From positions 25,132 through 89,131 of the IMG/VR virus record IMGVR_UViG_3300044825_002891: a DNA stretch of 64,000 nucleotides. One strand, 5' to 3'. The position numbers were made by a program, and so were the translations under genes. Positions 48,593-60,014 of this stretch are shown in pieces. The notes beneath the pieces were generated by a model. The model saw only the letters and a list, made by a program, of their open reading frames with translations, was not told the DNA's origin and searched no databases. Origin of the DNA: a virus. Position 1 is the first letter of the stretch. Every line of letters starts with the position of its first letter.

Positions 48593-48610
48593 GACGTGTG
48601 CTCCTTGTCT

Positions 48611-48662
48611 GTTGCTTGTGCAACGGTTGAGGGGGAGAGGGTGCGCACACACCCCCTCCCCC
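48611..48662 (-). terminator. Terminator-like hairpin plus leader hairpin between DUF932 gene and next gene
   Basis: The arms 48631-48643 and 48650-48662 form a 13-bp stem with one mismatch, loop CGCACA. On the minus strand it follows the DUF932 stop by 12 bases. A second short hairpin GTTGC/GCAAC (48611-48615, 48620-48624) comes next, ending 4 bases before the AAGGAG of the downstream gene. No T-tract, so partial termination or mRNA processing is likely. Confidence 0.6.
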
Positions 48663-48674
48663 TGTGCGTACGGG

Positions 48675-49952
48675 CTAGACGCCCGCCAGCGCGTACTCGT
48701 CCTTGAGGATCGCGAACGCCTTGTTCTTGAGCGGGCTGTCCTCCACGCTGCGCAGCAGGGCCTTCTCGGCCTTGCGCTCGCCGCGCTGCGGGGCCTGCCA
48801 GTCCGCGTAGTCCGCCACGGCGTTGTACGCGCCCCAGACGGTCCCGCGGATGTTCGCGAGGTCGTCGTCGTGCTTGTACGTGTGCGCGATCAGCTCGCGC
48901 GTCTCCGTGGCGATCGTGAGCGACCGCTTGTACCCGCGGTCGTCCGTCTGCCCGTCCTTGGGCGTGGGCAGGGGCACCAGCGTCTTGACGAACCGCTCGA
49001 ACGCGGCGTCGTCGATGCGCGTGGTGATCATGGCGTTGGCCATGTCCTCCCACAGGTCCATGTAGCCCACGGTCAGCTGGAGCGTGCGCCGCGCGTCGTC
49101 CAGGTGCATCTTGACGTTGCGGCGGTGCTGCACCTTCCACTGGCGCAGGCAGCCCTCCAGCGGGATCGTCATGCCGTTCGTGCAGGCGAGGCGGAACGGG
49201 GCGACCGTGATGGTCACGGACAGGCCGCCGTCCCAGCCGTTGGACAGGAAGCCCAGCGGGATGCACTTCTCGTCCTCGTCCCCGCCCACGACGATCTCGC
49301 GCGAGAACTGCGCGAGCCCGTAGATGCGGCGGCCGCCGTCGATCTCACCCGCGCCCAGCCACTTGGCGGACCCGTCGTCCACGAGGTCGTCCATGAACGT
49401 GAACGCCTCCCAGTTCTGCGGGCCGCGCCAGTTCTTGCCGACGACGCCCAGCACCTCGCCGTTGTCGCCGCGCACGTTCGCGACGAAGCGCGAGGCGCGC
49501 AGGGTGTCCGGGTCGCTGCTGGCGTCCGGGTTGACCTCGCCCTTGTCGTCCATGCCGACGAGGTGCGCGTACACGGGGTACTGCGTGACCGTCCAGTCCA
49601 GACCCGCGATCTGCATGGCCTCGGCCGTGGTCCTCACGTTGCCCGGGATCACCTTGCCGGTGTCCCAGCCCCGGATCTTCTTGCCCTTGAGCATGCGCAG
49701 GGACGCGGGGCTGTGCACGCCGCCGCCGCGGCCCACGTCCTCCGCGCTGGCGTCGCGCATCCAGAGGTAGATGCCCCCGCCGGGGGAGTGCTGCTCCCAG
49801 TCGATGCCCTTGTGATCCAGCGCGAAGCCGGACGTGGGCGGCACGGGGGGCTCCTCCGGCTTGGGGTCGTGCGCCGGGGGCTCCTCGGTCGGCTGCCACG
49901 CGTGGGTGGTGCCGGTGTTGAGGTTGATGATGGGCGGGAAGTTCTCGTTCAT
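48675..49952 (-). CDS. DUF932 family protein (plasmid/phage-like TIGR03299)
   Basis: 425 residues from ATG 49952. A Pro/Glu-rich N-terminus (~20-40) is followed by the DUF932 pattern: QNWEAFTFMDDLVDDGSAKWLGAG, GGRRIYGLAQFSREI, then VTITVAPFRLACTNGMTIPL and a helical C-terminal half. The family is common on plasmids and phages, and its molecular role is not established. It is the first gene of the third accessory unit with the best promoter in the region, and it has high-expression codon use, so it is probably an abundant early protein. Confidence 0.8.
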   Translation of the reverse strand: MNENFPPIINLNTGTTHAWQPTEEPPAHDPKPEEPPVPPTSGFALDHKGIDWEQHSPGGGIYLWMRDASAEDVGRGGGVHSPASLRMLKGKKIRGWDTGKVIPGNVRTTAEAMQIAGLDWTVTQYPVYAHLVGMDDKGEVNPDASSDPDTLRASRFVANVRGDNGEVLGVVGKNWRGPQNWEAFTFMDDLVDDGSAKWLGAGEIDGGRRIYGLAQFSREIVVGGDEDEKCIPLGFLSNGWDGGLSVTITVAPFRLACTNGMTIPLEGCLRQWKVQHRRNVKMHLDDARRTLQLTVGYMDLWEDMANAMITTRIDDAAFERFVKTLVPLPTPKDGQTDDRGYKRSLTIATETRELIAHTYKHDDDLANIRGTVWGAYNAVADYADWQAPQRGERKAEKALLRSVEDSPLKNKAFAILKDEYALAGV

Positions 49953-49960
49953 GATGGTCT

Positions 49961-50073
49961 GTCTCCTTGTTTGAGACGGTTGGTGGGCTTACTTAGCCCT
50001 GTGGATTGGGGACTCTAGGCGGGGCCGATCCCGATGTCAAATCGGGACCGGCGATCCCGCAGCTAGAGCCAAA
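49961..50073 (-). promoter_or_regulatory. Strong leftward promoter, distal GAGCCAAA box and RBS hairpin for the DUF932 unit
   Basis: On the minus strand TTGACA (50040-50035), a 17-base spacer and TAGAGT (50017-50012) form the most canonical promoter in the window. A TTTGGCTC box lies at 50073-50066, 25 bases upstream of the -35. The leader ends in a GTCTC/GAGAC hairpin (49961-49977) whose 3' arm contains the AAGGAGAC ribosome site, so the site could be masked. The remaining gap up to 50079 holds nothing else visible. Confidence 0.65.
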
Positions 50074-50079
50074 TGCTGG

Positions 50080-50340
50080 CTAGAACCAGCGGGGGGTGGG
50101 GGTCTTCGGGGAGCGGGGCTTCAGGTGCGCCTCGCCCCAGTGCGCCTTGAGCGTGTCCTGCACCTCGTCGCGCAGGCGCTGGCCGTACTGCCTGTACTCG
50201 TCCGACAGGTGGTAGTTGTTGTCCATGTAGACGCGGCTCTCGCCCGGGAGCGGGTTGCCCACTCGGGCGTTCCCGCGCACGACGCGCATGAGCAGGTTGG
50301 CGCGCTTCTTGCGCGCCTTGCGTGCGGTCTGCTTGGCCAT
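50080..50340 (-). CDS. Small basic protein
   Basis: 86 residues from ATG 50340 behind ACAAGGAGGACTGATC. The N-terminus is highly basic (AKQTARKARKKRANLLMRVV) and the rest includes YMDNNYHLSDEYRQYGQRLRDEVQDTLK. Nucleic-acid binding is plausible from charge. It is the last gene of the second accessory unit. Confidence 0.6.
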   Translation of the reverse strand: MAKQTARKARKKRANLLMRVVRGNARVGNPLPGESRVYMDNNYHLSDEYRQYGQRLRDEVQDTLKAHWGEAHLKPRSPKTPTPRWF

Positions 50341-50342
50341 GA

Positions 50343-50558
50343 TCAGTCCTCCTTGTCCCACCACATCATGATGGGCGTTGCGTTGCGGGGCGGGCTGTAC
50401 TCGAACCTGATCGCCCACTCACGGGCGATGTCCTTGGCCTGCTCCTTGGTGTCGGCCCAGATGCGCTTCTGCACACCGTTGGCCCAGGTGCACGTGTACG
50501 AGCGCTTGCCGCGCCCGTTCAGTGCGTTGCTGATCTGTGTGTCAGTGATCAGACTCAT
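50343..50558 (-). CDS. Small hypothetical protein
   Basis: 71 residues from ATG 50558 with GGAGGAGTCAC upstream. The sequence TCTWANGVQKRIWADTKEQAKDIAREWA suggests a beta-hairpin plus helix (double-stranded RNA-binding-like or AP2-like small domain), and the C-terminus is PIMMWWDKED. No family assigned. Confidence 0.55.
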   Translation of the reverse strand: MSLITDTQISNALNGRGKRSYTCTWANGVQKRIWADTKEQAKDIAREWAIRFEYSPPRNATPIMMWWDKED

Positions 50559-59153: not shown

Positions 59154-59434
59154 GACAGGACCTCCTTGTCCTCGCGGATGTACACCTGGGCGAGGCCCGT
59201 GTCCATGTGGATCTCGTTCTCCTCCGACGAGCACATGTACTGCTCGCGGATGTCCAACACGACCCAGCGCGCGTCGGCCAGTCGCTCCGCCTCGCGCTCC
59301 ATGTCCTCGTGCGTGAGGCCCTTGAGCCACACGCTGGGGCCCGTGGCGGGCCACAGAACCATGTCGAACAGGTCCACGCCCACGTGCTCGGGCTTGCGCG
59401 CGTCCCCGCTGTGGGGGCTGATCTTGGTGCTCAC
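59150..59434 (-). CDS. Small hypothetical protein
   Basis: 94 residues from GTG 59434 with GAAGGAGACAGCAA upstream. It contains VDLFDMVLWPATGPSVWLKG and a helical EDMEREAERLADARW segment. A GTCGCA/TGCGAC leader hairpin sits just upstream. No family recognised. Confidence 0.55.
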   Translation of the reverse strand: MSTKISPHSGDARKPEHVGVDLFDMVLWPATGPSVWLKGLTHEDMEREAERLADARWVVLDIREQYMCSSEENEIHMDTGLAQVYIREDKEVLS

Positions 59435-59449
59435 TTGCTGTCTCCTTCC

Positions 59450-59497
59450 GTCGCACTCCTGTGTGCGACGTGCCCGGGGGCATCCAAGCCCCCGGGC
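59450..59497 (-). terminator. Terminator-like hairpin plus leader hairpin
   Basis: GCCCGGGGGC (59472-59481) pairs with GCCCCCGGGC (59488-59497), a perfect 10-bp stem with a 6-base loop, 16 bases after the upstream gene. GTCGCA/TGCGAC (59450-59455, 59464-59469) follows and ends next to GGAAGGAG of the gene at 59434. Confidence 0.6.
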
Positions 59498-59513
59498 GGT
59501 CGTGTGTGTTGGG

Positions 59514-59750
59514 CTAGAAGCCCATGTCCTCCATCGCGCATGCGATGGCGTCGATGTCATCACCCATGATCTCGTGCATGATCGCGGCCGTGCTGGCCGT
59601 GTCCTTCAGCGGGAAGCCCCGCTTGCGGTGCCTCTCGCAGCACGAGCACTTGACGATCGTGCTGTCCTTGACGGTCAGCCCGTATGCCTCGGGCTCGTGC
59701 AGGCAGTCGATCTCGTGCGGCTCTCCGCACGTGATGCAGTACAGGTCCAT
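59514..59750 (-). CDS. Small protein with two Cys pairs
   Basis: 78 residues from ATG 59750. LYCITCGEPHEIDC and STIVKCSCCERHRKRGF together suggest a zinc ribbon. The C-terminus is acidic and helical (HEIMGDDIDAIACAMEDMGF). GACAGGAGGACAGACAC lies upstream. No family recognised. Confidence 0.6.
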   Translation of the reverse strand: MDLYCITCGEPHEIDCLHEPEAYGLTVKDSTIVKCSCCERHRKRGFPLKDTASTAAIMHEIMGDDIDAIACAMEDMGF

Positions 59751-59767
59751 GTGTCTGTCCTCCTGTC

Positions 59768-59983
59768 CTAGAAGTTGCCGTCGCACATGTAGTGCATGCG
59801 CTCGTTGCGGCCGTACACGATGACCTTGGCCTTGCACGTGTGGGCGACCTTGCGGGCGCACACGATCGCGCTGTCGAGGTCAGCGAAGTCGCCCTCGGCC
59901 AGCGTGCGCGTGAACTTGTTCATGCGCCCGTTCACGTTCGTGATGTCCAGGTACAGGGGCTTGCTGTGGGTCTTGCGGGCCAT
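59768..59983 (-). CDS. Small basic hypothetical protein
   Basis: 71 residues from ATG 59983 with GGAGGGAGGCCATC upstream. It is basic (ARKTHSKPLYLDITNVNGRMNK, CKAKVIVYGRNERMH) with three Cys. A GCCGC/GCGGC leader hairpin (59999-60014) precedes it. Possibly nucleic-acid binding. Confidence 0.55.
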   Translation of the reverse strand: MARKTHSKPLYLDITNVNGRMNKFTRTLAEGDFADLDSAIVCARKVAHTCKAKVIVYGRNERMHYMCDGNF

Positions 59984-59998
59984 GATGGCCTCCCTCCT

Positions 59999-60014
59999 GC
60001 CGCTTCTGTGCGGC
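59999..60014 (-). promoter_or_regulatory. Leader hairpin upstream of the gene at 59983
   Basis: GCCGC/GCGGC around a six-base loop that reads ACAGAA on the minus strand, the same loop as at 57287-57292. It ends directly at the AGGAGGG ribosome site. Confidence 0.55.

Follow-up and report, generated by a model that had tools for sequence, protein, structure and literature searches.

Leader hairpins beside the ribosome-binding sites of a phage accessory gene array: probably a new variant of start-associated RNA element

The 64,000-nucleotide stretch of viral DNA analysed here (the window) covers positions 25132-89131 of the 89,131-bp IMG/VR record IMGVR_UViG_3300044825_002891. Its plus strand encodes a DnaB-like helicase, a DnaE-type polymerase, a RuvC-like resolvase, a terminase, a portal and a major head protein, and an accessory gene array runs along the minus strand from about 60.2 to 47.2 kb. 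Where array genes follow a non-coding gap, a short hairpin nearly always stands beside the Shine-Dalgarno (SD) sequence. These leader hairpins are enriched at gap starts, keep their pairing through compensating changes, and share one orientation and a common placement; they are very probably a selected RNA element. A preliminary description, made from the window alone, had listed seven of them as a minimum. All seven are present at the positions it gave, on the minus strand and in the direction of the array genes, and an eighth, absent from its list, lies at 54878-54863 ahead of the GP88 gene. A phage collection searched for DNA similar to the window gave no match. The DUF932 and GP88 proteins of the array have distant relatives across many phages, with actinobacterial ones prominent, and an actinobacterial host is therefore plausible.

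The sole relative found to carry the array is IMG/VR contig IMGVR_UViG_3300010885_043431 (locus L004 with its flanks; 47,977 bp), in which the array is rearranged and the alignable parts have 66-81% DNA identity to the window. The head of the array is reordered (L004 441-2433 against window 60237-58124), and each gap start there still has a hairpin leader. The same metagenome yielded a further contig, L062, which is collinear with the terminase region and could be a separate portion of the phage represented by L004. Searches with DUF932, GP88, gene 58785, the phosphoesterase and TerL revealed no second relative carrying the array.

The eight leader hairpins of the window, all on the minus strand, can be followed down the array from its head. 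GCCGC(ACAGAA)GCGGC (59999-60014) lies directly against the SD AGGAGG of gene 59983-59768, and in the relative GTTGC(ACAGAA)GCAAC stands ahead of the homologous gene. The next hairpin, CGTCGCAC(ACAGGA)GTGCGACG (59449-59470), is followed after 1 nt by the SD of gene 59434-59150; it had been listed with a 6-bp stem, which proves to be 8 bp long. GCCGC(ACAT)GCGGC (58802-58815) precedes gene 58785-58195 and has the counterpart GTGCTGC(ACAA)GCAGCAC in the relative. Ahead of gene 58124-57702 lies GCCAC(ATGC)GTGGC (58138-58151), with a predicted pair probability of just 0.20; in the relative an identical stem with the loop ACAGAA follows the same upstream gene at the corresponding place. GTCGC(ACAGAA)GCGAC (57282-57297) precedes gene 57267-56959, for which no homologue was found in the relative, and shares its loop with the hairpin at 60014-59999, as had been noticed before. 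The 102-aa product of this minus-strand gene looks KOW-like by eye, and no library match supports this. The GP88 gene (54835-54089) is led by GTGCGG(ATGA)CCGCAC (54863-54878), which ends 12 nt ahead of the SD, and its counterpart GTGTGCA(ACAGA)TGCACAC differs by two compensated pairs. At the DUF932 gene (49952-48675), GTCTC(AAACAAG)GAGAC (49961-49977) encloses the SD (AAGGAG), which spans the loop and the 3' arm; the relative has an identical stem with the loop AAAAAG. Contrary to the preliminary description, the SD does not follow the hairpin at this site. Finally, GTTGC(ACAA)GCAAC (48611-48624) precedes gene 48592-48143 and corresponds to GTTGC(GCAA)GCAAC in the relative.

Across the two phages, the stems are 5-8 bp and the loops 4-10 nt long. 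In nine well-aligned copies the outer pair is invariably G-C and the inner pair C-G, and at positions 2 and 3 a pyrimidine always faces a purine. The loop starts with ACA in nine of 14 leaders, a start seen in 1.5-4% of comparable stems when whole strands are scanned. Most copies have AG(A) after the stem, and in several this continues into the SD as AGAAAGGAG or a similar run, which is complementary to the 3' terminus of 16S rRNA in actinobacteria. The distance from stem to SD is mostly 0-4 nt, with values of 7 and 12 at the GP88 leaders and a negative value at DUF932. Folding predicts a stem formation probability near 1 in 13 of the 14 leaders.

The hairpins are concentrated at gap starts. 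Among window gaps, counted when non-coding and at least 36 nt long, eight of nine starts have a stem of at least 5 bp that ends 4-30 nt ahead of the start, where dinucleotide shuffles of the same gaps give 1.26 (P 1e-7). In the relative a hairpin is found at all six gaps of at least 70 nt, against 0.83 expected from the same kind of shuffle (P 7e-6); because the hairpin sets of the two phages are homologous, the second test is not independent of the first. The preliminary description had held that equal frequency at random positions would count against the hairpins. No such equality was observed, although stems of at least 5 bp are common in the background, at 28% of random positions in the array; measured against this rate the enrichment has a P of 2.6e-4 in the window and 3.2e-4 in the relative. 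Where a start overlaps the upstream gene or lies almost against it, a stem is present in two of 21 cases (window) and six of 24 (relative). In left-arm gaps such stems occur in 6/17, none of the G...C/ACA type, and the strict motif GNNNC-ACA...-GNNNC with SD, start codon and open reading frame (ORF) is confined, in each of the two phages, to the array's coding strand.

Pairing is maintained while the letters vary. Because MAFFT aligned the two GTCTC hairpins and that of gene 59434 wrongly, pair counts were restricted to the nine well-aligned copies. All 45 cells of this alignment are paired, and both sides have changed in three of the five pairs (ten such cells). The covariation score is 0.60, where shuffles give 0.30 and none of 500 reaches it; the shuffles ignore relatedness among copies that may descend from one another. 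Over six matched hairpin pairs between the phages, seven of 31 stem pairs have changed, all seven still pair and none is broken. The orthology behind these matches is uneven. The GP88, DUF932 and 48592 gaps are syntenic on both sides, and two compensated changes, both at GP88, fall here. The pairs W59983-L992 and W58785-L1298 (W, window; L, L004) are matched through the downstream gene and contribute three, whereas W59434-L1930, with two changes, is matched through a weakly similar gene; the upstream gene instead pairs L1930 with W58124, whose stem is identical. The strict count is therefore two compensated changes and none broken. The earlier claim that stem letters differ while pairing is kept under selection for an RNA structure is backed by these pairs, and the loss of pairing at matched positions that it had named as a refutation was nowhere seen in the relative.

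A covariance-model search of related phage sequence had also been named beforehand as a test, and it was passed on held-out sequence. The model was built from five window copies alone and searched over the whole relative contig. Its four best matches are the gap starts L004 1930, 11334, 992 and 1298 (26.6-18.1 bits; E 3e-8 to 1e-4), followed by the gene start at L004 2820 (16.0 bits), where the hairpin lies within the upstream coding end, and by the DUF932 start of the relative (10.9 bits, E 0.12). Part of each score comes from the SD and start codon, because the model includes both, and the best score on other viral loci, a set that includes loci fetched for hairpin sequence, is 16.3 bits.

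Several gaps hold additional structure, again on the minus strand. In five of them (59434, 58785, 58124, 54835 and 48592) a strong hairpin of about 9-15 bp lies just upstream of the small one. These are located at 59472-59497 (10 bp), 58819-58842 (loop ACAGGA; a 10-bp counterpart with loop ACAGAA in the relative), 58156-58181 (11 bp), 54894-54921 (12 bp, also in the relative, where one C-G has become U-G) and 48631-48662 (about 15 bp, with a shorter counterpart). The DUF932 gap has the 5-bp hairpin GGGCT(AAGTA)AGCCC (49985-49999), kept in the relative with the loop AAGA, and the gaps at 57267 and 59983 have no strong hairpin. Most leaders with a strong upstream hairpin fold more stably than shuffled sequence (z about -3 to -4.5). 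The upstream hairpins have no T tail, and no minus-strand terminator-like site was found in 47-61 kb; for lack of a U tract, intrinsic terminators were rejected. A promoter-like TTGACA-17-TAGAGT (50012-50040, minus strand) lies upstream of the DUF932 leader and reads TTGACG...TAGAGT in the relative. A second promoter-like site (54974-54945, minus strand) is seen upstream of GP88, and the inverted repeats round the -35 of both sites differ between the phages with their symmetry maintained. Most gaps have no promoter match. In the two leaders with a likely promoter, the small hairpin would lie about 30-65 nt from the 5' end of a transcript that began just after the -10, and still beside the SD.

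Two other sequence features were observed. On the plus strand ATGAGCCTAWTNNNNTCTGGTCGC occurs in four exact copies, with none expected by chance, at 61312, 61361, 61488 and 62065 in a CA/TG-rich non-coding region; a fifth, degenerate copy lies near 62008. In both phages a tRNA T-arm-like GCTGGTTCGATTCCAGCACATGC is present at the array head (about 60310-60287, minus strand, and about L004 382-404), where neither ARAGORN nor Rfam detects a tRNA.

The preliminary description had proposed that the hairpins might stabilise processed 5' ends, recruit a protein or tune translation, and all three are still candidate functions. The placement of the hairpins suggests a role at translation initiation. 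Genes that follow a real gap would be out of reach of translational coupling, and a 5-8-bp stem-loop fixed beside the SD could serve the 30S subunit as a folded anchor, or landing point, so that every uncoupled gene has a start signal of its own. An initiation role is favoured because the hairpins keep a constant place relative to the SD and occur where coupling is impossible; it is the SD, and not the transcript end, that fixes their position, since they lie well inside the promoter-led leaders and yet beside the SD. We give roughly even odds (about 0.5) to the reading that the hairpins are a cis-acting family of leader RNAs for post-gap array genes, acting at initiation as a 30S landing point. 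That they act in translation, with the ribosome itself as the partner, is what we infer from this arrangement. In Salmonella, initiation is enhanced by ACA motifs near the SD, which have been discussed as a 30S anchor, perhaps through S1, and ACA is found in the loops of selected S1 ligands (PMC3879156). A different initiation mechanism, in which the stem would insulate the SD, was dropped: folding with the stem forbidden left mean SD exposure unchanged. Because constrained folding does not support a stem-opened SD, it is more likely that the hairpin contacts the 30S subunit or a protein directly.

Several points weigh against this initiation role, beginning with the insulation result itself. 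The SD of DUF932 lies inside the hairpin in both phages, where it would hinder initiation, and this leader may be regulated differently from the others. Five of the 14 loops do not start with ACA. The set is carried by two phages only, and since duplication of a single leader may have produced the copies, the changes are not independent events. The evidence for ACA enhancers comes from enterobacteria (PMC3879156).

Given the strong upstream hairpins, the main rival is RNA processing with end protection, in which the gaps would be cleaved, the upstream hairpin protecting the 3' end and the small hairpin capping the downstream 5' end. Leader stem-loops cap the 5' ends of some stable bacterial mRNAs, and because most gaps have no promoter match, 5' ends there would need cleavage. 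The five window gaps in which a strong hairpin without a U tract directly precedes the small one, and the stable folding of most such leaders, are consistent with this scheme. However, the position of the small hairpin tracks the SD and not the transcript end, well inside both promoter-led leaders; the gaps at 57267 and 59983 lack the strong partner; and stabiliser stems require no fixed loop, yet ACA recurs. We consider processing possible, although on the unlikely side. The hairpins could also be operators for one RNA-binding regulator of phage or host origin, with the genes forming a translational regulon: the inner C-G pair, the ACA loop and the following AG(A) are common to diverged stems, the DUF932 hairpin contains the SD itself, and T4 gp43 acting at its own leader hairpin offers a phage precedent (PMC3014915). 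Against such operators, the loops range from 4 to 10 nt with five deviating, and no candidate binder, ORF 57267-56959 included, has library support, which leaves this alternative doubtful.

The remaining alternatives move the function to transcription or remove it altogether. The sites could be boxB-like, acting in antitermination or attenuation; boxB is resembled by 5-bp stems with short loops, and strong hairpins lie just upstream. Yet there is one copy per gene, beside the SD, with no boxA noticed, and the strong hairpins are upstream rather than downstream and without U tracts, so that such a function is very unlikely. As inverted repeats near gene starts, with dyads also flanking the promoter-like sites at 50040 and 54974, the hairpins might instead mark DNA operators for a transcription factor. 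This was rejected as highly improbable: the spacing of the arms is variable, the arm sequences differ between sites, and the asymmetric loop always has the same orientation and lies beside the SD. Chance hairpins in G+C-rich DNA would draw on the high background of stems at random places and in left-arm gaps, but the shuffle enrichment, the strand bias of the strict motif, the covariation, the held-out search and the compensation in matched pairs, taken together, make chance scarcely credible.

A bolder reading is offered as a rather unlikely one. The leaders might form a lineage-specific RNA regulon in which one loop-reading partner, either the ribosome, anchored at the ACA loop, or an RNA-binding protein of the phage, would set the translation of all uncoupled accessory genes, the interchangeable leader hairpins staying put while neighbouring genes shuffle. 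Genes are exchanged fast in phage accessory arrays, and little is known of how a newly placed gene gains a translation start; a leader element that is small, repeated and covarying would be a compact candidate for such a start signal.

In the window only tRNAs reach the Rfam gathering score; no family does so in the array, and no credible sub-threshold match was found in the array or the relative. The exact ACAGAA variant occurs in 40 IMG/VR stretches, with hairpin, SD and start together only in the known relative. The ACAA variant occurs in 93, of which 36 are paired and two have an SD and ORF. These two, the unrelated L100, rich in promoter-like repeats, and L142, with a terminase-like ORF, were judged isolated or chance cases. 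L100 (IMGVR_UViG_3300036770_005499) contains 29 copies of the promoter-like repeat AAACTNCAG-N8-GTATAG in 40.8 kb, where a control gave 0, and one copy precedes a GCCGC(ACAA)GCGGC hairpin beside an SD. A stricter hairpin pattern was absent from 84,980 species genomes.

Among known systems, stem-loops that stabilise mRNA 5' ends, such as the Bacillus aprE leader, are also small and near the ribosome site. They act near the transcript 5' end, whereas the place of the present hairpins is set by the SD. The T4 gene 43 operator is likewise a hairpin in a phage leader, close to the ribosome site and with a conserved loop, but it is a single site with one known binding protein, compared with eight leaders here (PMC3014915). 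ACA enhancers share the ACA triplets a few nt before the SD; they belong to enterobacterial mRNAs and include no hairpin in their definition, whereas here ACA lies in a loop (PMC3879156). The closest system described in the open-access literature is that of the start-associated sequences (SAS) and extended SAS (ESAS) of cluster K mycobacteriophages, which have the same placement and a different sequence. SAS/ESAS occur in many copies in the right non-structural arm, all oriented one way; they overlie the SD region immediately ahead of the start codon, mostly at genes after gaps of more than 50 bp (PMC3203893). The SAS is a near-fixed 13 bp that includes the SD, and the ESAS adds inverted repeats, imperfect, 17 bp long and of shared sequence, with a 4-13-nt spacer (PMC3203893). 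Searching the 64 kb for the 13-bp SAS GGGATAGGAGCCC with up to two mismatches gave three matches against 1.3 expected, none at a hairpin-bearing start; without SAS enrichment, membership in that family was rejected. Unlike the 17-bp ESAS repeats, the hairpin stems are 5-8 bp and their letters vary with compensation. What the two have in common is a single orientation and a placement immediately ahead of start codons, for the most part after large gaps and in the non-structural arm. The hairpins are probably a real RNA leader element and a new variant of this start-associated kind, and would supply a structural counterpart to the cluster K SAS/ESAS, whose role has been open since 2011.

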